NCBI RefSeq assembly: GCF_037975245.1
Contig: NC_092564.1
Coordinates: forward strand, 7,096,984 to 7,160,983
Direction: 5' to 3'
DNA: 64,000 nucleotides
DNA from: Apostichopus japonicus
Lineage: Eukaryota > Echinodermata > Holothuroidea > Aspidochirotida > Stichopodidae
A program made the position numbers and the translations under genes. The notes under the pieces were generated by a model, which was not told the origin of the DNA, did no database searches, and worked only from the letters and a program-made list of their open reading frames with translations. This document shows positions 6,401-63,800 of the stretch, piece after piece (within the stretch, counting starts at the first letter, position 1; the number at the start of each line of letters is the position of its first letter).

Positions 6401-7667
6401 CTCACGAGGAAGACATGTCATATTTTACTTTAGGTGGGGCTATCTACCTCTTTTTTTTTTTGGCTGTGTTAACTTTATTTTGTGTGTGTGTGTTTTATTT
6501 TTTTATTTTTTTGTAGCCTTCACTGAATATTGTTTGACTTACTAAACCATGGTAGTAGTACTACTATAAACATTTATGTTTTAGTACTTTTTTTATGTAT
6601 TGATGTTCACTGAACATTGTTTGACTTACTAAACCATGGTAGTACTACTACAAACATTTATGTTTTAGTACTTTTTTATGTATTGATGTTTAGCATGTAC
6701 AGCACTGGTGCTAGTGCTGTATCAAAGTCTTTGTTTTTTATTCGTAAGCTTAACTGCTGTTTACTACACCCTTGTCTGGCTACTGCATGCATCATCTGTG
6801 TGTTAGTTGGTGTCACAATTCTGTTTTACATTGGACTTGCTGCAGTATATCTCTCTACAACCGACCATAGGCCTTTTTGTATCTGTGTAACTGTGTCTTT
6901 CAATGCCATTCTCAGTGCAGCACATACACTACTCTAGTTACCTGTCTGGTACTGTTTGACTAATTTCATCGTTCCTCCTTTATTTGTATATTGCAGGTGG
7001 AGCCTCTCCTTGCCACAGTGATATCAGTGCATCGAGTTCCCTCGACAGTAACCAGAATTCGGACAGCATCCACCACAATCATTCCTACGCATCTTCATCA
7101 GAGGCGGGCAGCCCGAAAGGTTTCCGGTCGTACAACCGGTCCAAGAACGGCAGCTTTGATGAGGACGGTTTCAACCGGCCCTCCAGGGACGAAAGACGAG
7201 CCAAGGAGCTGAACATCCCCATTCCGATCGAGAAGATCATCAATCTCCCCGTCGACAGTTTTAACGACCTCTTGAAGAAGTACGATTTCAACAACAAACA
7301 ACTACAGCTCATCCGTGACATCAGGCGCCGCGGCAAGAACAAAGTCGCCGCCCAGAATTGCCGCAAGCGAAAGATATCGGCCATCCAGCAGGTGGAAGGT
7401 TCGGTCGGCGCGATGCAGAACGAGCACGACAAACTCCTGAAGGAACGCGACAAGGTTAACGAAGAGCTGTCCGTCATGCAGTCACGTTTCGACGACCTCT
7501 ACAACCAAGTTTTCCAAACCATGCGAGACCGTAACGGGGACCTGGTAGACCCCAGTCAATTCCGGTTGGAAATAATGGAAGACGGTTCAGTCATACTGGT
7601 GCCACAGAACCGCACAAACTCGACAGGAAGGCATCACAAGACAGACCGAAAATACAGTTCAAATTAG
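2..7667 (+). CDS. NFE2L1-like: CNC-bZIP transcription factor, NFE2L1/NRF1-like (5' partial)
   Basis: Seen: four exons (2-484, 911-1898, 2337-2459, 6997-7667) join in frame with GT-AG introns and give 754 residues from base 2 to the TAG at 7665-7667. In order: an NRF1-type segment (REIILG/QFHN-like block, about residues 18-55), an acidic stretch with DSGIMDSED, a DRDLIEALWRQDID block (162-175), ETGE (214-217), 13 N-x-S/T sequons (about 300-465), an acidic exon, a CNC domain (about 596-637), the basic region with VAAQNCRKRK, a zipper, and a GSVILVP tail. Known: NRF1 is ER-anchored, glycosylated, then retrotranslocated, de-glycosylated and processed to activate proteasome genes; NRF2 uses ETGE and DLG motifs for Keap1-driven turnover. 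Inferred: this gene combines both types. The ER-anchor segment should lie upstream of the window, so the ATG at base 2 is probably not the true start. Confidence 0.93.
911..1898 (+). CDS. NFE2L1-like: CNC-bZIP exon B (Neh2-like ETGE, NST-like sequon cluster)
   Basis: Acceptor tctcttccag ends at 910; donor gtaagt starts at 1899; phase 0 in, phase 1 out. It encodes the LIEALWRQDIDMG block (DLG-like with Met for Leu), ETGE at 1067-1078, the LSFEDCLNLL and IEQRWQDL blocks seen in NRF family transactivation regions, then 13 N-x-S/T sequons between about 1330 and 1825. The sequon cluster corresponds by position and composition to the NST glycodomain of NRF1. Confidence 0.93.
2337..2459 (+). CDS. 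NFE2L1-like: CNC-bZIP exon C (acidic, Ser/Glu-rich)
   Basis: A short 123-bp exon between a polypyrimidine-rich acceptor (tcctgtatcag, ending 2336) and a GTGGGT donor at 2460. The reading phase (1 in, 1 out) fits exons B and D exactly. It encodes an LLSEDESFSADESEGSLEG segment typical of the acidic part before the CNC domain. Confidence 0.85.
4660..5215 (+). repeat. Diverged tandem duplication, about 265-bp unit
   Basis: Two adjacent copies (about 4660-4925 and 4930-5215) share, in the same order, caagttggattgaagt, tacttggtacata, ggtgctcat, aataataatgaggtca, gttggtagatag and ttgatattatgca-like blocks, with a small indel in the second. It is intronic. No coding potential is seen. Confidence 0.75.
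6521..6690 (+). repeat. Tandem duplication, about 85-bp unit, two copies
   Basis: Copies at 6521-6607 and 6608-6690 both start cactgaa(t/c)attgtttgac and end in tatgtattgatgtt, with few differences. It lies about 300 bp before the last exon of the CNC-bZIP gene. Confidence 0.9.
6997..7667 (+). CDS. NFE2L1-like: CNC-bZIP exon D (CNC domain, basic region, zipper, C-terminus)
   Basis: Acceptor ttgcag ends at 6996. It encodes a His/Ser-rich lead, the CNC domain from DERRAKELNIPIPIEKI, the basic region with VAAQNCRKRK (7344-7373), a zipper of about six heptads, and the conserved GSVILVP C-terminal block, ending TAG at 7665-7667. The exon is markedly more GC-rich than its surroundings, as expected for a conserved coding exon. 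Confidence 0.95.
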
Positions 7668-29535: not shown

Positions 29536-29833
29536 CAGGCGCGTAGACAGGAATTTGCCAAGGGAGGGGCGAAACTGTAGATTCGGCATTGCAAACTATC
29601 TCAGCGTAGCGCCACTATGGTTGGCGCGAAGCGTACAAGAAAATTTTGGCTAATTTTAATGCCTCCCAGATCGCTGGAAATGGCACTTCCCAGGCCTTGT
29701 AAGTTGCATCTTAGCATTTTCTCTTTTGAAAATACTAGCGATATCATAAAAACATTAAACATTTATTTAAAATATATGCTCAAGGGGGGGGGGGGGCGGC
29801 TGCCCCCTTCGCCCCCCCTTGGCCACGCGCCTG
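29536..29833 (+). mobile_element. hAT-like non-autonomous element
   Basis: 298 bp with ends CAGGCGCGTAG... and ...CACGCGCCTG in inverted orientation, flanked exactly by the 8-bp direct repeat gagaaaag (29528-29535 and 29834-29841). It carries the shared core of this window's hAT-like family: tagcgccac, ttggcgcgaagcg, aaaatttt, ggaaatggcacttcccagg. Eight-base duplications and CAG...CTG ends are typical of hAT elements. It sits about 120 bp past the stop of the minus-strand cathepsin gene, probably within or next to its 3' UTR. Confidence 0.85.
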
Positions 29834-29963
29834 GAGAAAAGTAAAGAAAAATATATGATTATGTGCATACACAAGCGAACATCAAACTCATCTCTCCTGC
29901 AATTAATGTTCCCCTTTTGGTTCTCACGAAGTGACAAGACCTGTAGTGTTATTAGATCACTGG

Positions 29964-30063
29964 TTAAACTGTAGGGTAACTAGCTGCAGTAGCGATACCA
30001 CACTGGTTATCCTTGTTTCTTGACATCCAGATGTACCCCTGCTGACCCCAGCTTAGACCCCAG
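29964..30063 (-). CDS. Ser-cathepsin exon 5 (C-terminus)
   Basis: 100 bp, nearly identical in DNA to exon 5 of the paralogue (one amino-acid change, Ala for Ser), ending at TAA 29966-29964. The match runs on into the 3' UTR. Confidence 0.9.
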
Positions 30064-33000
30064 CTAAATAGAAAAGAAAATGGAGAGGATGTGAAAGATT
30101 AAACAACAAATAACTAACAAAACTATATAAAACAATGCTTTTGAGAGAAATAGATCCCCTGTATGCGTATGTGTGTGTTTGTATATAGTTTCGTGCGGCA
30201 TTTCATTGCAACAACAAAATTTATCAAATTAACAATGTAATTGTCTCGAACAAATAATAGTTAGAAAGCCAATCTTTCATAATCTAATTTGCATATAAGA
30301 TTCACGTCAAGCATTGCATTTGTCATAAACATAAGATTCATTACCTGAGAATTGGAGGACGAAATCATTATGTTATTGCACTAGATATGTGAGAAGGTCC
30401 CAAAGTGGTCACGTAAATTAAATGCTGCTTCAACTTTCTCCATGCAAGCAAAGAACACACAGTTATCTGATGCCACTTCGAAGTCAGACTAATTTAAAGA
30501 GTAAACTCTCTGTTAACTATAGACATAATTAAACCTGCAGACAAATACATCAAAGCCTATATAGTAACTATGTTATATGGGTATCAGTTTTAGAATTGCC
30601 CCACCGCTGTGGGGATGTCGAAATTGTTCAGGAAGTTCTGCCAGTCATACAGTGTAATAATGATCCACTGTTATAATGAACGCACTTTCAAAAAAAAATA
30701 CTGAAGCTGTGAAATGAATGCTAAGACAAGAAGGCAAGTATATGCACCAACCTGTTTTTAACAATCCAGTAATCACCACCTTCGGGATCAGTACCATACC
30801 CAACGACTAACAATGCATGATCCACCTCAGTGCTACTACAGGATCGTTCATCGTAAACACCAGATTCATATAACTGAAAGGACCCGTGGCTGGCATCAAT
30901 GACAACTGCGATAGGGCCAGTGGTGGCACAGGCTATTGCGAGGGCGTGCTCGTCACCGGTGGGAATATCGACATATCCAGTAACCTTCGCTCCAACGTGC
31001 TTAGGATCAAATCGGCATGGACCTTGCTGTATATAAACCAATAAAAACACAAGTAAAGTTTAAGTATATGACTAAATTTAAAACATTTAACTCATTTTTT
31101 TGTCTGTACTTGCCAGTTCATTCGCTTTACATTGCGGCAAAGAAAACGTTGAAATTTGGTTTTCTGTGGCACTTGCCTTTGAGCGATTGCACGAAAGACA
31201 TTGACCCCTGAAAAATTTCGTCCCCCAACTCGGACCTAACCTGTCAAGCATATTATTATACGAACGAGGTAACTTACTAAATATGACAAACTACATATTA
31301 CTACAACATATTTTGATGATTGCATGCATGTTTTTTTTTCTGCCTTTCGAGAGATGTACATACCTGCCCTTCGTACGGGTAACTCTCTTCCGTATCAATA
31401 CCACCATTTTCCTTGACGTATTCAAATGCGGCATCTCCGGAGGAGGGGACACAATCTATCAAGTTTTGCTCACTCAGAGCTGTAAGAGTGCCCACGGACC
31501 TGGCATGTTGCCCTTCAATTGAACCTGTGGCACTGAATGCCCAACTCGCCCCACATTGGCCCTGTTTACAACAAAAGGCGGAACAATAGACCAAATATGT
31601 TGTATTCAAAAACTGTTTTAACAAAATAATATGAGTCCAGTTCTGAAACTAATTTGAGATTATAAATTTAAAAAAAAAAAACACGTTTCCATAAACGGTC
31701 CTCATGCTTTCTAAATAAAAGTGAAGTTATTTTTCGGCCATGGATCTAAGATTAACAAAACAGTTCTTTTGATTAGCGAGATTAATGAGTATTGTATCCT
31801 ATACTATATATTGTGAAACCATTATCGATTATCTATATTGTCATTTTCCTTTCAGCCCCAATTAGTTCTAATACTGTCGAGGCTGTGCATTATTTTCTGT
31901 GTGTGGAATGACCAGTATATATAGGGAGTATACTGTATACCTGATCTTTAACTGGGGTGACGTAACCTTTATCTCTCCAGTCCACAGCATTCGGAAGCTG
32001 CAATTTTGCATAGCTCGACAATAATTCAATTCTCTTCCTTTCGCTAGAGGCATTCAGTTTTAGGCGGTTCATCAACGTTATCTTCACAAACTCTTCAACA
32101 CGCTGTAAATCAAACGGAATGACGTTATTATCTATATTATAAGATGAACGTCTTCCATCTTTATACGATGACATATCATCCTAAATATGCCAACATTTAT
32201 CAATTTTTATCCTACCTAGCCTATAGTGAAATTGTCAATTAGATAAGGTTTACCGGTACTTCTCTTTACTCAAGTTTGGTTCTAAAGTTACAAAATAATA
32301 CATCAAGTAAGGTACCTTCCCAACACCAAAATTCAGTAATGAATGTCTTACTGTCAATTTCTGTCAACATGAAAACTTGTAAAAATGGCGGTTTTGTACG
32401 AAATGTGAATGCAATTCAACTGGACATTCTAAAACTATTAAAGAAACGGCTGAAATGTGTGTTTGCAACGTATTGGAAACTTTGTGGTCATTTTGCAATA
32501 TCTATAACCTCTTGTCTATGTGTGTGTTTTATTATATTCCCTTTATAGCATACAGAAACTATTTTGGTAATTGGGTGATGGCATTGGTAAATAACCATTG
32601 TTTTTACCATCACTGTAGTCTGTACCATCGGATACCTCAGCGATAGAGAATGGTTAGGTAACATTATTACTAGCTCGAAATTAAACGTTATGTTATAACG
32701 ATTTATACTAAGACCAGTACGAATCAGAACCAAGTATAAACACCATCAGTTAGAAGTGACTTCATTCAAAGGAACCTCATTTTATATATATATATATATA
32801 TATATATTTCAGATTGACAGCTCTGTCAATATGGCATATAATAAACTGTATCCGTGGCGTAACTATAGTAGTTGGCACCCGGGCGGATCCTTCCTATGTA
32901 ATCCCGTGAAGGGGCTGCCATCCTGGGAAGGGGTGTATATCTGGGGAGAACTTTTTGTTTATGTAAGGTGGCTTAATTGCAAAATGCTGCTATCTTTGAA

Positions 33001-35619
33001 CTGCAGGGTATGATCAATATGTGGCATGGAACCCCCTGGGTGGTCCAGGGAGGACCCTCCCACCCCCCCCCCCCCCCGTTTAGTACGCCGCTGAACGGTA
33101 TTATCAAGGAAACGACTCGAGAGTTAACCTACTAATTTATCCAAAGGACAAATGGATTCTTTCCAACATGACCTTTTGTTTTCAAGGCATAAAACACTTT
33201 TCATTTGTTTCACATCGTATAAATTTTTTCATTATGTTTATTATACTTCAACCCAAACCCATTAAACACTTTTCATTTGTTTCACATCGTTATAATATTT
33301 TTCATGTTGTTAGTATACTTCAACCCAAACCCATAAAACAATAGGCAAATAAAGGGTCAGTTGCATTGTTTTACTTTGTTTCGTTTGCTACATTTTGATT
33401 TAAAAAAAAAAAAAAAACTTTGTTGTTAAATGTACCTCGTGTGCATATCATGAGAGTGAAACTGAGTATCCACTTAAATTCTTTGCCAAAACAAAATCTT
33501 TTTTTACCATTAAAGGACGGAGATTTTTGACCTATAGTTGGAAAATCGAACACAAGACTGTTTTACTAGTTTATTTTGCCAATATGAACTCTAAAACGTG
33601 AGTAAACGTGAGACATGAGACTTATTGACCGTTGTAGAAATTTCGTCCCCGGACACTTTCCTTTTATGGAACATTAAAAACAACACGCAGATAGCAAATC
33701 AAAATGTGCAAAACGTGGCAATTTATTCAAATTTTTTTCTTCTTCTTTTGGAAATCAAACACGATTATAGTCAAACTTATGCAACAGCTCCATTGTGACG
33801 GCAGCCAGTTGGGACAATTTCCTAATGCTATAGTACCTCTTTAAATTGTACACCAATATCAAGCTTCATAGCACTGGTATTGACAGTACATGCAGTTCCT
33901 AACCTTGATCTGATAGAAACATGATATTCATACTGCTCGTACTGACAATAAGAGTGCTCTGAAGCTGGAAATAACACTACAGTACAGAAAAAATTGTCCC
34001 AAATGGGTGGTGACGGGACGTTAGTGTACATTTGTCTGATCATTAAACAAAAATACTGACAAGCTGCTATAACTCTGAGGAATTATTCCGCGTAAACTAC
34101 AAAGATTGTAATTATATAAACTATCAACGAATTGCACGTAAGTCAAAGGTATATAGGTTTGCTATAAGGGTAATCACTGTTGTCCAAAAATATGCTAGAA
34201 AGTAGCGTATTATGGCAACTGATATGGTCACAACCAAACGTGAACAAGTATTTCACCCTTAGATGTGAGAACATTTCCCCTCACGTGACCTGTTTAAAAC
34301 TAACTTTGAGGACATTTCTCGACTCATGATTATTTTCGATACATATCAAATTAGAAATCATATAAGAATCATATAAAAATCATAAGAAAAACGGGGTCTT
34401 ATATTTCCAGTTTCATTTTCAGTTAGCGAAGTAAAAGTACCACATTTTTAGAAGAAAAAAAATCAGTTTGCTTTAAGGTTAATTAATATTACTGCTCACA
34501 GGAAATGAAAGGGGAACGAATAATATTGTCCTGACTTCGAGCGTAATAGACCGTGAGAAACTGTCGTAATTTCCTTATAGCGAGGCATCTAAAAAATCCA
34601 GGGACTCTCCTCAGTGAGGGTATTTGGGACTTAAAAGAGCTTACAGACAAAAAAATTAATATTCCATATACTATGACAATGTTACGTGACACATTCTACG
34701 TGTTCACCACCCCCCCTTCCCCTCCCAACCCTATCCCTACACGATAGCTTAAGGGAAAATAAAGATTTAATAAAGAGAAATGTTGTTTTTCCTTAAATTA
34801 CAAGTTTCAATGCGTTGGAAAATCCAAGCTTCATAGGCCATTTTTTTCTCTCAGGTGTATGGGAAAGAACTACGTATGTGTCAAAATATTTAAAAATACA
34901 ATCTTGAGAAAATCATTTCCTCTCTTTTGACGTCAGCCTTGGAAGGCAGTTATTTTTAAGAAATGCTAAGTAGCCACAAACCGTACCGTACATGAGAGGA
35001 GTCTAATGGCTTTATTATTTACACTTCACGTCAGGTGACTATCCAATTTTACAACTTACAGTTGCAGAGGGATGCACTGGCTGAATGTTTGATGTAGGCT
35101 TTTGAGTAAACCATGCAGAATCTGTTGTCTTATAGCTAGAGGATAAATCATGTTTTGTTTCATTGTCCCCCAGAGTGTGACTGCACAGAAAAATCAGTTC
35201 AATGTATTTTTGGTAAGTGTGTTTGGCAAACTTTGTTCTGCTTGATATGAAGTAATATTTCCAAATATTTCAATTACACACTGCAGCCACATTAAGAATG
35301 ATCAAAGTATTTTTTTTCTGTGCATGAAAATTGAAAACTCATCAAGGATCTAAAACGGGTTAGAAAATCTTACCAGATCGGCGTATTTGTTCATTCCAAG
35401 GGTGTATGAATGGAGTCCGAGTGAATGTTCTGTATTGTGCTTGCTAACTTTCTGGAGGTTGTCCTCCCAGATTTTTCTCCTGTTATCTTCTTCCTCTTTG
35501 GTGTACTGCTTGGAGTGTGTTTGCTTCCATGCTTCCCAGGTATCATCAAAGCCTTTGTCAATGACGGTGAAACATAGAGCGCTGGCTACGCAGGCAAGGA
35601 AAACTGCTGACTTCATCAT
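29964..35619 (-). CDS. Cathepsin L-like protein with Ser in place of the catalytic Cys
   Basis: Five exons (35619-35374, 32102-31941, 31561-31364, 31026-30752, 30063-29964) join in frame with GT-AG introns and give 326 residues with no stop. Seen: a hydrophobic leader (1-17), an I29-type propeptide with an ERFNIN-like pattern (E-x3-R-x3-W-x2-N-x3-V-x3-N) and GMNKYAD, mature start near [11 protein letters not shown], then [10 protein letters not shown]. Ser142 (codon 31546-31544) stands where the family has its nucleophilic Cys. His272 ([11 protein letters not shown]) and Asn293 (KNSWG) are present. Exon 3 is nine codons shorter than its paralogue and lacks the GCxGG loop. Known: Ser at this position occurs in sponge silicateins, testins and TINAG. 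Inferred: not a normal cysteine protease; either a pseudo-enzyme or a silicatein-like hydrolase. The intact frame and splice sites argue against a simple pseudogene. Confidence 0.88.
30752..31026 (-). CDS. Ser-cathepsin exon 4 (catalytic His)
   Basis: 275 bp, the same length as in the paralogue, phase 0 in and 2 out. It carries [12 protein letters not shown], the Cys-Ser-Ser run and [13 protein letters not shown], and ends GGDYWIVKN. Confidence 0.9.
31364..31561 (-). CDS. Ser-cathepsin exon 3 (active-site exon, GASW)
   Basis: 66 codons, phase 0. It reads [10 protein letters not shown] at its start, SEQNLIDC in the middle and ESYPYEGQ at its end. Compared with the paralogue it lacks nine codons after LIDC, which removes the Cys of the GCxGG loop. 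Confidence 0.9.
31941..32102 (-). CDS. Ser-cathepsin exon 2 (propeptide end, mature start)
   Basis: 54 codons, phase 0 at both ends, acceptor gatttacag and donor gtatac. It carries [16 protein letters not shown]. It is three codons longer than exon 2 of the paralogue and only about 60% alike in protein. Confidence 0.88.
32852..33093. mobile_element. hAT-like non-autonomous element in intron 1
   Basis: 242 bp from CCGTGGCGTAAC to GTACGCCGCTG, imperfect inverted ends of the CAGTGGCGTA type. Flanks aactgtat (32844-32851) and aacggtat (33094-33101) match at 7 of 8 bases. The interior has a poly-C run near 33064-33077. Older than the other copies, judged by the mismatches. Confidence 0.65.
33190..33336 (+). 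repeat. Tandem duplication, 72-bp unit, two copies
   Basis: Both copies carry aacacttttcatttgtttca, then acatcgt, and then atacttcaacccaaaccca, about 72 bp apart. Confidence 0.9.
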
Positions 35620-35625
35620 GATTTT
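34790..35625 (-). repeat. Inverted segmental duplication, arm 1 (partner 54066-54990)
   Basis: Covers exon 1 and the first ~580 bp of intron 1 of the Ser-cathepsin gene. It matches 54066-54990 in opposite orientation through coding and non-coding sequence alike, with small indels and about 120 extra bases in the partner near 54600-54720. Confidence 0.88.
35374..35619 (-). CDS. Ser-cathepsin exon 1 (signal peptide, propeptide)
   Basis: 82 codons from ATG at 35619, ending with a complete codon before a GTAAGA donor. 79 of 82 residues match exon 1 of the other cathepsin gene. A second ATG is the next codon. An AG ending near 35653 (minus strand, tgttcag) suggests a 5' UTR intron just upstream. 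Confidence 0.9.
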
Positions 35626-35653
35626 GTTTCTTCACACATATGAATAAACGCTG

Positions 35654-36580: not shown

Positions 36581-37795
36581 CATGGGCGGCGATCATGGGG
36601 GGGACGGGGGGGACATGTCCCCCCCAATATTTTAGGTGGGGGGGATATAGTATCTAATATCCCCCCCAATATTTGGTGGCATAGTTTTTTTTAAGCATAT
36701 GTTTTGTATTTTTTTATGATATCGCTAGTAATTTCAAAATAGAAAATGCTTAGATGCAACTTACAAGGCCTGGGAAGTGCCATTTCCATCGATCTGGGAG
36801 GCATTTCGGCCGAAATTTTCTATTGCGCTTCGCGCCAACTTATGGTGGCGCTACGCTTAGAAAGTCTGGGTACAAGCTTTGCCCCTCCCTTGGCAAATTC
36901 CTCGCAAGGCGCCTGTCTAACCGTGTCACAATTTGTTACTCTATATGACCGAAAGTAGCTTTTCCTTTTTTTTCGAAATGAATAGCTAGACGGACCGCAT
37001 CCGTAATGAAATAAGTACGTACAATCATATATGATCCACATCGATATGGGTTCGCTGGGTTTCCATTTGGCCTGTTTCCTACAAGATTTCTAACCGCAGG
37101 TGCGTAGCCAAGGGAGGGGGCTGAAGGGTGGAGACCGCCCCTCCCCCTCAAGCATATTTTTTTGGTATTTTCTATGATATCGAAGTTTTATAGTAGCCGT
37201 TATAAGAGGTTTTAATATTTGTACACCAATAATTTAACTGTGTCTGAATTTTCGAAATTCCTTGACCAACATTCTTCATCATACTTCCCTCTACTCGTTC
37301 AATTTTGACCGGTCTGTTAGGGGTTGAGGTTTTTTTTCTATATTGGTTGTCCATAGATGAAATTTTGTGCAACATTATGGGTATGTTTGAAGTGAATTTA
37401 TTATTCAAATTCTGAACAAATAATGGGCTTAAAACCTTGAAAAGTGGGGCTGACGGGTATTGTGGGGCGTTACGTAGAATTACCTACAAAAGCAATGATC
37501 CACAGGAGATGCAATGAGGTCGAACATGATGTGTGAATGGTGACAATCTTGAAAAAAAGGTAATGAATGAAAAAAAAAACTATTAGGAAAAACTTGGTTC
37601 TCAGGCAAAAGTGTACATCTGGTTGGTCATTTTCAAGCCCGAGAAGTGCCATTTCCTGTGATCTGGGGGGCTATCAAAACCAAAAATTTTCTTGTACGCT
37701 GCGCGCCAACCAATGGTGGCGCTCCGCTTCGATAGTAATTCGCCTGCACCCAAGCAAATGTCCCCCCCAATATTTGAAACAGATCGCCGCCCCTG
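36581..37795 (+). mobile_element. hAT-like non-autonomous element, twin copy 1
   Basis: 1,215 bp with ends CATGGGCGGCGATC and GATCGCCGCCCCTG, flanked exactly by the 8-bp direct repeat acttcaaa (36573-36580 and 37796-37803). It carries two copies of the family core in the same orientation (about 36770-36865 and 37645-37735). Between them lie two inward-facing element ends (GCGCCTG ending 36915, CAGGTGCGTAG starting 37097), each touching a copy of tctaaccg. No transposase is encoded. The whole unit recurs in inverted orientation at 38545-39759. Confidence 0.88.
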
Positions 37796-38544
37796 ACTTC
37801 AAACAACATGAAAACCTAATCACGTGTCAAATTCAAATAACGAACTTTCTCTTGTTAGATTGACAGAGTTTCACAGATAGTTATACAACCAAAACAGAGC
37901 TGAGAAGGTTTTTAAACTGTTAAATTGTTGGATTCATCAATTTATTCTCTGAACTGATCAGTTACTGTCCTGACTTCCGGGTTCAGAGTCCACGGCAATA
38001 CGGCATAATAGAATGCCGCGGTTGCAGTCACATGTGTTACACCGTGACTATAAGGATATGCTTATCACTCCCGTGACTTTGAGCAAATATTATCAACATA
38101 ATAGAAATTACAGGTATAGCCTAGCTACTGTATTATATATCGGACGATAACTAAGTAAAGTCCTACAGTCAGTCAACAAGCATTGTTCATTGTGATTCCA
38201 ATCTGTAACTGTTTGCGGTTTGAATTGAGTGACGTATATAACTATTACCAAAATAAATATTTATAGCCTGCTACAGAATACCGTGCAGGCCAATGGTCAC
38301 GCAACAATACATATCATTGCAAGAGTGTGTAAATATCTTAGTGAAGGCCTGTATAGATCTACATATGCAATATATATATAAAGCCTATACACTGAGTTTG
38401 GTGCAGAAGTTGATATATTGGTTATAAAGTACTCGGCGGGCTGTCTATTACAGCAGTTTCAGTGGAAATTTGATGCAAAGGTTTTATCAAGAGACAGAAT
38501 TATATTCAATGTAAAACTGAACCTAAAATACTTATTGGTTTATT
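37796..38544. other. Spacer between the twin hAT-like elements
   Basis: 749 bp of unique AT-rich sequence. No coding feature is seen. Confidence 0.7.
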
Positions 38545-39759
38545 CAGGGGCGGCGATCTGTTTCAAATATTGGGGGGGACATTTGCTTGGGTGCAGGCGA
38601 ATTACTATCGAAGCGGAGCGCCACCATTGGTTGGCGCGCAGCGTACAAGAAAATTTTTGGTTTTGATAGCCCCCCAGATCACAGGAAATGGCACTTCTCG
38701 GGCTTGAAAATGACCAACCAGATGTACACTTTTGCCTGAGAACCAAGTTTTTCCTAATAGTTTTTTTTTTCATTCATTACCTTTTTTTCAAGATTGTCAC
38801 CATTCACACATCATGTTCGACCTCATTGCATCTCCTGTGGATCATTGCTTTTGTAGGTAATTCTACGTAACGCCCCACAATACCCGTCAGCCCCACTTTT
38901 CAAGGTTTTAAGCCCATTATTTGTTCAGAATTTGAATAATAAATTCACTTCAAACATACCCATAATGTTGCACAAAATTTCATCTATGGACAACCAATAT
39001 AGAAAAAAAACCTCAACCCCTAACAGACCGGTCAAAATTGAACGAGTAGAGGGAAGTATGATGAAGAATGTTGGTCAAGGAATTTCGAAAATTCAGACAC
39101 AGTTAAATTATTGGTGTACAAATATTAAAACCTCTTATAACGGCTACTATAAAACTTCGATATCATAGAAAATACCAAAAAAATATGCTTGAGGGGGAGG
39201 GGCGGTCTCCACCCTTCAGCCCCCTCCCTTGGCTACGCACCTGCGGTTAGAAATCTTGTAGGAAACAGGCCAAATGGAAACCCAGCGAACCCATATCGAT
39301 GTGGATCATATATGATTGTACGTACTTATTTCATTACGGATGCGGTCCGTCTAGCTATTCATTTCGAAAAAAAAGGAAAAGCTACTTTCGGTCATATAGA
39401 GTAACAAATTGTGACACGGTTAGACAGGCGCCTTGCGAGGAATTTGCCAAGGGAGGGGCAAAGCTTGTACCCAGACTTTCTAAGCGTAGCGCCACCATAA
39501 GTTGGCGCGAAGCGCAATAGAAAATTTCGGCCGAAATGCCTCCCAGATCGATGGAAATGGCACTTCCCAGGCCTTGTAAGTTGCATCTAAGCATTTTCTA
39601 TTTTGAAATTACTAGCGATATCATAAAAAAATACAAAACATATGCTTAAAAAAAACTATGCCACCAAATATTGGGGGGGATATTAGATACTATATCCCCC
39701 CCACCTAAAATATTGGGGGGGACATGTCCCCCCCGTCCCCCCCATGATCGCCGCCCATG
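38545..39759 (-). mobile_element. hAT-like non-autonomous element, twin copy 2 (inverted)
   Basis: Exact mirror of 36581-37795: position x pairs with 76340 minus x over the whole length with no indel, and every open frame in one arm has an identical translation in the other. It has its own 8-bp duplication, ggtttatt (38537-38544 and 39760-39767), different from that of copy 1. The two copies are therefore separate insertions and not one long palindrome. Confidence 0.9.
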
Positions 39760-54071: not shown

Positions 54072-60841
<6,770 letters not shown>

Positions 60842-63800
60842 CCAGTGATCTAATAACACTAGGTCTTGTCATTCAATAATTTTTCTTCATTTATATCGGA
60901 AGTTTGTAAAGTCAGCTTAAAAAAAAATTTAAAAAATGGGCGAATTTACGTTAAGCTTGTATATTATTCGGAATTTAAACGGGGAAAAAATTCATTTGAG
61001 CTCTTATTGAATTTTTGTACATATGTTTGTTTGTCGCAAATTGTACTCTGCTTTGATTTTGTCTGTTTTCTTCCTTACTTGAGCTACTGTGTTTCGTCTC
61101 TTATTTAAATACTCAGATTCCTTATCTTTCTTGTCTGGTCATCTTCCACAATGATACTTTGTTCTAAAACACTTGTTTCTATCACAAGTCAAACATATTA
61201 TAATCTACTCTATAATTGCAATCTGGAGTTAGCTCCTTTGCAGAAGCACAGGGAAGGTTAAATTTCAAAAAGGAAGTCTTGTGGATAAGTCTTGTCTTTC
61301 ATCTTGATGTAGAGAGTGAAGGAATTGTTCGAGGTGGGGTGGGGTGGGGGGGGGGTTGTTGGAAAAGCTCATAGAGGTTTTGTTGTAGTTTTTGCTAATG
61401 AGTCTATCAGAGTTCTTCTAAATAACGCTTTATTGCTGCATTACATTTATAAACGATAGCTAGAATATTCTGATTTATTTTTGGTTTAAGGTTTTATTTT
61501 CACCGGAGTCTCTATATTTTGTTGTCCTCCGGGAGCAGATTTCGTGTAGTAATAAATGTGGATGCTGACACAGGTGTGTTTTGATTAAACATTAATTCTC
61601 AAAGCAGTCCAGTTGTGCTAACTACAGAGGTTTAGTTCAAGAGAGGTTTAGTTCAAGAGAGGCTTTTTTCCATATGTCCGACATCTTTTTCGTCAAAATT
61701 CTGAAAGCGAATTTGCATCTAAAACGAGAAAGAATCAGAAACCTGAATCGGTGATCCCTGTAGTCTGCTCCTCGAAGACGATTCTCTTCAAAAATGGCTG
61801 CAATTTGATCTTTCACCTCATTTTGCTGTCGTGAGCTTGTGGTTTTCATTCCAGAAACTTACCGTTCAACTTTAAGACTTTAAATTTTGATGTTTGATGA
61901 GAGAGGATGGTTTTGAGAAGGAAAAGTCTTCTTCTTATCTGCTACAGCAGCAGAAGTAATGTTACCACTGAGACCACAGTTTTCTCTCTTCCTGTTGTTT
62001 CTGTTTGGTGCTTTTTTCAGTCGACCGCCAAGCTTGGTCTAAAAGTTAACCAACTCTCATGAGACTTGCCATGCAGTAAGAGCTCTGCCACATTTTTGGT
62101 GTGCTTGGTGGATTGGACAACTCAGTTAAACCATTAGCCTTAAGTCTTCCTATAAATGTAGGCCCGGTCTTTCGTACATAAATAGAGACGTCCGATGCAG
62201 TATCGGGGAGCTTGTTTTTTGTTTTTGAGGTATCATGACATTTATTCAAATTAAATGATGCGTAAATTATGCAAATTCTGATAATGCACAGTACTTGGTA
62301 TGCATCAATGTATTCACCTTATGTTTAATGTTTGCAGTTAGTCCCTTTGTTCTGTTCACAATGATCATCTGAACCCCCATTAAACATCTTACGGTAGTTA
62401 TTGGTTAACGACGCTTCCAGGCATATCATCCCATGGCTCCCATTACCTCTGGTACAAATAGTCAGATATAGCCAGTACAACAGTCCTAGTACTTACATTA
62501 CTCCGGGTCAAGATGGTTAGGTATGGCACGTGGTGTTACAATCGTGCCTGAAAGACACCCCACCAGGCCCACCACCCTTGGTGTGGTCTCGAGTAGTGAG
62601 CGAGTAATAGGTTAGTGTAGTGATTATTGTGATAAGCAAACATACGACTGTTTCATAAGCAGTCTTACAGGTCTGTTAGTTTACGAGTCTCTCGGTGAAG
62701 GGTATCATTAGAACTGCCACAAAGGGATATTTTGATTTTACATAGATGCCTTACTTTACGCTTCTCTTTGCTGGTATTTATCACCCCATTTGTCAAAATC
62801 TGTTACTGAAATTCGTCTTTAAGATAAGTAGTATAGCATGTCCATCCTTGCTCCTTTAGGGTGATCTCAGATTTCATTTCTCTTTGCCTTCGGATAATGT
62901 CTCGTTCTCATCATGTGTAAGGAGTAGTGTTTCTGGTAGGCCACCCTTAGAGAAGATATACAAGTGTCCACCATTTAGTTGATGGGAGAAATTGGTAGGA
63001 ACAAGAATGAACATCCTTTTTTTAATTATAATTTAATTAAATAAAGGAATAAACACCGTTTTTGTAAATTGTGGAGTGTAAATAAAACCTGCTCCTTTTT
63101 TTATGAAGAAACTATCATCTTTCTTGTCTTTGCTGTGCACACTATGTTCAATGTTACTCTTTCCTTATAAGAATTTTCTAGTCAAGATTTATGGCAATCT
63201 GACTTTGGCCACCATCTTGTTATATTTCGCTATGACTTCTAGCAACACCGAACGGTCTACGATCATTTGATCAGTAACATGTGCTGAAGGAAATCAAATT
63301 TTTGGACATATCAACAAATCAAGGAGTACAATGGGACCAAATAAAAGTCTCTCCTCCAACCACTACGGCCGTTCAAGGGTCTAACACATCATTTAACATC
63401 ATCAAAATTTTACAAAGGTATTATATCCTCTACTGTATGATTTGTGTTCTTACACTGTTGTTGGTTAGCGCCATTTCCCGACATTGTCTATGAAGGAACC
63501 AGCACTTCCAACACTTAACATTCCTTCTACCCAGTAAGACGCGTTCTCCGAATTGTAACATATATAAAGCAAATAGGTTCCACCACCCTATAGAGTAAAA
63601 AAATGTCTGATGTTCAGAAAGGAGTACATACCAGTTTCTTCCCCCTGTTGTAATTAGATAAACTAGATAATACTTTATCTTAACAGTTCATGATTACACC
63701 CAAGCTCTTTAGCCCTGACCCTAATAAACAAATCGAAGGCTATGCTACATACTCCAGCTGTGCTACTGGTAGCTCTAAATCCCGATGGTTTTCAAACTAG

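Follow-up and report, generated by a model that had tools for sequence, protein, structure and literature searches.

A window of 64,000 nucleotides from the genome of the sea cucumber Apostichopus japonicus carries a cathepsin L-like gene, here called F, which its sequence identifies as probably a selectively kept pseudo-cathepsin L: an old paralogue of the cathepsin L gene SjCL, probably dead as a protease, that may modulate SjCL. Of the two possibilities raised in an initial annotation of this DNA, a secreted pseudo-protease and a convergent silicatein-like hydrolase, the first is supported by the serine at the nucleophile position, by deletion of the GCNGG block from the substrate cleft and by the intactness of the gene.

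Structure of the F gene

F lies on the minus strand and is made up of five exons, with a spliced coding sequence of 981 nt that ends in a single terminal stop and encodes 326 amino acids. Exon 1 (35374–35619) encodes the signal peptide, which was called by eye only, and most of the I29 propeptide, and exon 2 (31941–32102) encodes the end of the propeptide together with the N-terminus of the mature domain. The active-site helix, in which Cys25 is replaced by Ser, and a nine-residue deletion are found in exon 3 (31364–31561). Exon 4 (30752–31026) contributes the second half of the mature domain, including the catalytic His and Asn, and exon 5 (29964–30063) extends from the SWG motif through the C-terminus to the stop. 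All four introns are of the GT–AG type, and neither an internal stop nor a frameshift nor a broken splice site occurs across the five exons; the GT–AG introns and the 981-nt coding sequence bear out the initial description of five open exons with sound splice sites. Pfam profiles define two domains, the I29 propeptide (62.3 bits) and Peptidase_C1 (245.6 bits), with no further domain above the cut-off, and because both match, the fold of F appears to be kept. The best solved relatives of F are cathepsins L, and its domains are those of the C1A cathepsin L type, to which it belongs by descent.

Active site and substrate cleft

The translation of exon 3 shows an active-site block in which Gly-Ala-Ser is followed by Trp, and runs through to PYEGQ. 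The nucleophile codon is AGT (31544–31546, minus strand), as opposed to TGC in both SjCL and a third paralogue, T, and the residue before it is encoded by GCG in F and by TCA in SjCL. Both features of the active site first annotated, the Ser nucleophile and the changed preceding residue, are thereby confirmed, at AGT 31546–31544 and at the adjacent GCG. The difference between TGC and AGT amounts to two substitutions and that between TCA and GCG to two more, and with four substitutions over two codons the Ser does not stem from one miscalled base. Sequencing error was also considered as the source of the changes in F as a whole and is unlikely, given several substitutions and a 27-nt deletion. 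The catalytic His, the catalytic Asn (in VKNSWG) and the oxyanion Gln19 are retained, so that the early statement that His and Asn of the triad are kept holds in the spliced protein and extends to Gln19. The catalytic Cys25 of family C1A is absent, a catalytic residue having been lost from an open gene. Replacement of the nucleophilic Cys by Ser is reported to abolish activity in papain and in cathepsins L and S (PMC4671257).

The initial annotation overlooked that the GCNGG-LM block is deleted from exon 3 of F. In the alignment with human cathepsin L (CTSL), the exon lacks nine residues, in frame, corresponding to residues 62–70 (NEGCNGGLM), and when it was used to search the PDB, the chain stretch was 7–11 residues longer than F in all 60 of the 60 best rows among 128 matches. 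In papain-like proteases this block provides Cys65, the disulphide partner of Cys22, which occupies a structural position; its two glycines form hydrogen bonds with the substrate at P2/P3, and the S2 pocket is lined by its Leu/Met residues. After the signal peptide, F has six cysteines, compared with eight in SjCL, the missing two being Cys25 and Cys65, which would leave Cys22 unpaired. F therefore lacks a hallmark of the C1A cathepsin L type, the GCNGG block, which supplies both the disulphide partner and the S2/S3 wall. As the nucleophile and the cleft wall are both altered, a loss of proteolysis is indicated, and not a simple exchange of nucleophile; family knowledge predicts that this loss would be accompanied by the unpaired Cys22. 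Length changes between F and SjCL are in-frame only.

Relationship of F to SjCL and other cathepsins of the genome

The Cys-type neighbour of F, a gene for a protein of 332 amino acids on the plus strand (54072–60841; exons 54072–54317, 57947–58099, 58583–58807, 59699–59973 and 60742–60841), is matched with zero mismatches by the published SjCL qPCR primers, at 59831–59851 and 59940–59963. No other match within three mismatches was found in the window, F included, and the neighbour is therefore SjCL, the A. japonicus cathepsin L deposited as GenBank EU143709 (PMC12027202). The primer match also supports the echinoderm source that the initial annotation had considered probable. SjCL has been linked to body-wall autolysis, or melting, of harvested sea cucumbers (PMC11241220, PMC12027202). 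Both RT-qPCR primers lie within one exon and span 133 bp (59831–59963), the product range given in the paper being 200–300 bp; genomic DNA would amplify equally.

The two paralogues are 18 kb apart, in inverted orientation. They share the five-exon plan and the intron phases, and residues 20–82 of the propeptide are identical, whereas SjCL possesses a Cys nucleophile and a GCEGGLM block, and the core encoded by exons 2–4 is identical at 146 of 209 residues. Both Cys and a GCQGG motif are retained in T, the third cathepsin L, which lies at locus L001 (11.90 Mb on contig C4). A search of the animal's own genome with the exon 3 protein found at least four places, with Ser in F only and Cys in SjCL, T and locus L003. 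The corresponding searches with exon 1 DNA and with the exon 5 block, which like all the genome searches for copies of F can miss weak matches, returned at least two and at least three places, respectively, the third for exon 5 being T at 83%. Among the 29 PF00112 matches in the genome, the stretches read at four further loci (L008–L011) showed no active-site exon, and the genome may therefore hold another Ser-type copy.

Homogenised ends and an old core

Exons 1 and 5 of F have recently been homogenised with those of SjCL. In exon 1, dS between the two genes is 0.04 and 79 of 82 residues are identical, the differences being confined to residues 2, 13 and 19; in exon 5, dS is 0 and 31 of 32 residues are identical. 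The values for exons 2, 3 and 4 are 0.89, 1.98 and 1.63 when taken singly and 1.46 jointly, with a joint dN/dS of 0.14. F is, from this divergence, apparently an old paralogue of SjCL in which exons 2–4 are old. The 5′ homogenised block (34788–35634, minus strand) comprises 15 bp before the ATG, exon 1 and approximately 590 bp of intron 1, the intronic part differing from SjCL by 42 substitutions in 543 aligned sites. The 3′ block (29932–30082, minus strand) comprises exon 5 with its flanks, approximately 19 bp before it and 32 bp past the stop, and is 94% identical to SjCL at 60726–60871. These shared ends are most naturally read as the product of gene conversion or of some other ectopic exchange; an equally valid description of the history of the pair is that an older core took the place of the middle part in a younger copy. 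Because the homogenisation is recent, the identity of the F and SjCL propeptides does not require selection.

A perfect inverted repeat of 1,216 bp (36581–37796 and 38544–39759), the arms of which are 100% identical and separated by a 747-bp spacer, sits approximately 1 kb upstream of exon 1 of F; it may be a recent foldback element, reflect recent conversion between the arms or be an artefact of assembly. Inverted repeat copies at 29536–29766 and 36697–36915, parts of which are 85–91% complementary, flank F on both sides, and non-exonic segments of the F region match other loci (L001, L003 and L004). Recombination between the repeat copies around F could explain the inversion of F relative to SjCL.

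Selection on F

The pairwise dN/dS of 0.14 for exons 2–4 sums the F and SjCL lineages, and selection on F was modelled by branch. In a three-sequence codon model (F, SjCL and T as outgroup) with ω of F left free, F has a very short branch and its ω ranges from 0.7 to 7 across variants, indistinguishable from 1. It lies above that of the other branches at near-significant levels (P = 0.07 for exons 2–4; P = 0.055 for exons 3–4), and the mirror control, in which ω of SjCL was set to 1, lost approximately 2.5 lnL units relative to the model with F free. The free model gives no usable ω for F because the outgroup T is saturated.

When F and SjCL are instead given the same elapsed time since their split, with T assumed to be the outgroup, ω comes to 0.133 in F and 0.085 in SjCL, a difference that is not significant (P = 0.17), and ω = 1 throughout the history of F is rejected (2ΔlnL = 67). 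Provided that elapsed time is equal, these values show long purifying selection on the F core, and plain decay of F is unlikely. Addition of a neutral last phase to this model gives a best fit at approximately 6% of the history of F (lnL −1980.30, against −1981.66 for none); a phase of approximately 15% is barely tolerated, and one of 20% is rejected. Over 207 columns, the core of F shows 21 unique changes and that of SjCL 12, a faster rate in F that is not significant (P = 0.16).

A rougher test, which assumes that intron 1 and exons 1 and 5 were exchanged at one time, bears on the period since homogenisation. Exon 1 contains 3 nonsynonymous changes, compared with approximately 8 expected if F were neutral and SjCL constrained (P = 0.035), and the 4 such changes in exons 1 and 5 together are fewer than neutral drift predicts (P = 0.011). 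The initial annotation had held that the change in F did not simply follow decay. For most of the history of the gene this stands, on the equal-time ω of 0.133 and the rejection of neutrality; it is not upheld by the free model, in which F is indistinguishable from neutral, nor for the last 15% or so of that history, for which neutrality is allowed.

The main rival to a kept pseudo-cathepsin is accordingly a gene in recent decay, one that encoded a working cathepsin L until not long ago and has been drifting since the loss of its active site and cleft wall. We assign it a low but appreciable probability. The neutral last phase of 6% fits best, by a small margin, and the free branch model does not separate F from a neutral sequence; moreover, at 0.1 neutral substitutions per site, a stop-free F would still be expected in approximately 7% of cases. 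Set against this are five exons free of stops, frameshifts and splice damage, with length changes that are all in frame, and the shortfall of amino-acid changes in exons 1 and 5 relative to the neutral prediction, intron 1 being taken as the measure of age for both blocks.

Comparison with silicatein and other Ser-type proteins

F resembles silicatein α (6zq3) in its papain fold and in the Gly-Ala-Ser arrangement, as the initial annotation had stated, and silicatein α is also reported to have His and Asn in its triad (PMC7733841). The two differ in that silicatein reads GDCGASYAFS at the active site, with Tyr26 in place of the Trp26 of F, and keeps a GCKGG block that is deleted in F; silicatein α is, unlike F, a protein of the sponge axial filament. 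F has higher bit scores with cathepsins L and K than with silicatein, and over 71 aligned sites F is 66% identical to SjCL and 55% identical to silicatein. In a six-sequence tree built from 80 residues, F joins SjCL with low support (38, 37 and 62%). The printed sequence of the cathepsin S chain in this tree, 5qbu, shows an active-site Ser, presumably an engineered mutation, so that we do not count it as a natural Ser-type protein.

The chemistry of silicatein is itself only loosely tied to the nucleophile. Human cathepsin L and triad mutants are reported to condense silica in vitro, with a surface-templated mechanism favoured (PMC6233156), and Ser25 is therefore no marker of silicatein chemistry; since the same report argues against a triad mechanism, Ser is not diagnostic of silica formation either. 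Proteolytic activity of silicateins is described there as confirmed (PMC6233156), and the triad seen in silicatein crystals is described as being in an inactive mode (PMC7733841). The case of F illustrates that Ser at position 25 alone is no sign of silicatein chemistry.

Several other papain-fold proteins carry Ser at this position or are inactive. TINAG and TINAG-like proteins have Ser at the nucleophile position and are non-proteolytic; they possess N-terminal domains of their own and no I29 propeptide, and a TINAG identity for F was ruled out because F has the I29 domain and the cathepsin L gene plan. Gene pieces with a Ser nucleophile also occur at two loci on contig C9 (24.72–24.81 Mb), with CGSSWA and GCDGG in L006 and CASSWA in L007; by their look these are presumably TINAG-like, and they stand apart from F as another Ser-type group with the papain fold in this genome. 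Testins are derived from cathepsin L and are inactive. SERA5 of Plasmodium, which is distant from F and differs in domain make-up, resembles it in having a natural Ser in a papain-like domain. A non-enzymatic role has been argued for SERA5 (PMC4671257), and a chymotrypsin-like activity has been ascribed to it (PMC3265493). Ser in a papain fold does not, then, signify a dead enzyme in every report. Among the open-access matches listed, none concerned, by title or by the start of the abstract, a Ser-type or inactive cathepsin L of sea cucumbers or other echinoderms.

Proposed role of F and alternative readings

As a kept pseudo-cathepsin, F would be made as a secretory or endolysosomal pro-protein in which an I29 propeptide precedes a papain-fold domain. 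With the thiol nucleophile and the S2/S3 wall absent, neither self-maturation nor peptide cleavage of the cathepsin L kind is expected of it. Its core, from which much of the propeptide groove has been lost, would hold the propeptide less tightly, and the propeptide, the exon-1 part of which equals SjCL residues 20–82, could be presented to SjCL. F might then act on SjCL in trans as a propeptide-type inhibitor, a folding partner or a decoy where SjCL drives autolysis. We propose such action through the matching propeptide tentatively, as the likeliest of several regulator-type roles. The proteins CTLA-2, crammer and BCPI consist of an I29 domain with no protease domain, as distinct from the full one in F. 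In having an I29 domain they resemble F, and they are described as able to act on cathepsins in trans, CTLA-2α, crammer and BCPI being inhibitors of cysteine proteases (PMC4089206). The complex of CTLA-2α with cathepsin L is reported to be disulphide-bonded, inhibitory at acid pH and stabilizing at neutral pH (PMC4089206). A more doubtful extension treats the two genes as a linked pair whose repeated exchange would hold the exons for the propeptide and the C-terminus in step while the catalytic core stays free to diverge; F would then be a self-updating pseudo-protease regulator and an always-matching inhibitor.

The remaining readings are much less probable. Cystatins contact the non-primed side of the cathepsin cleft, and F could in principle shield SjCL from inhibition as a decoy that binds the cystatin SjCyt or some other inhibitor of cathepsins. 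The papain fold is kept according to Pfam, and complexes of SjCyt with SjCL are described in these animals (PMC12027202); no sequence feature of F points to this role, the wall on the non-primed side of the cleft is lost, and we consider it improbable. It is very improbable that F is a protease active by another route, with Ser25 or the freed Cys22 as nucleophile. The retained His, Asn and Gln19 and the release of Cys22 by loss of its partner would suit such an enzyme, but Cys22 occupies a structural position and the substrate-binding wall is deleted. The literature is divided on this point, with proteolysis reported for silicateins (PMC6233156) and chymotrypsin-like activity for SERA5 (PMC3265493), whereas Cys-to-Ser replacement is stated to abolish papain-type catalysis and SERA5 is argued not to be catalytic (PMC4671257).

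Least probable of all, and to be given hardly any weight, is the reading of F as a mineral-forming protein or as a Ser hydrolase convergent on silicatein. The Gly-Ala-Ser shared with silicatein α speaks for it, but holothurian ossicles are of calcite, not silica. The loss of the GCxGG block, Trp26 in place of Tyr and the closer likeness to SjCL, the nearest relative found, and to cathepsins L led us to reject the silicatein-like hydrolase proposed in the initial annotation. Some activity in vitro is possible, given that human cathepsin L and its triad mutants condense silica, and the same source counts against the reading in arguing that silica formation does not proceed by the triad (PMC6233156).

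On the preferred reading, that of a kept and probably disabled sister gene linked to SjCL and nearly identical to it in the propeptide, F may serve as a natural regulator of that protease. The near-identity of exons 1 and 5 in the two genes also means that antibodies, RNA probes and proteomics directed at SjCL could be misled by F.

Elsewhere in the window, an open frame on the plus strand (6960–7667) encodes a bZIP_Maf domain (58.5 bits) and is, by its sequence, presumably of the cap'n'collar/Nrf type.
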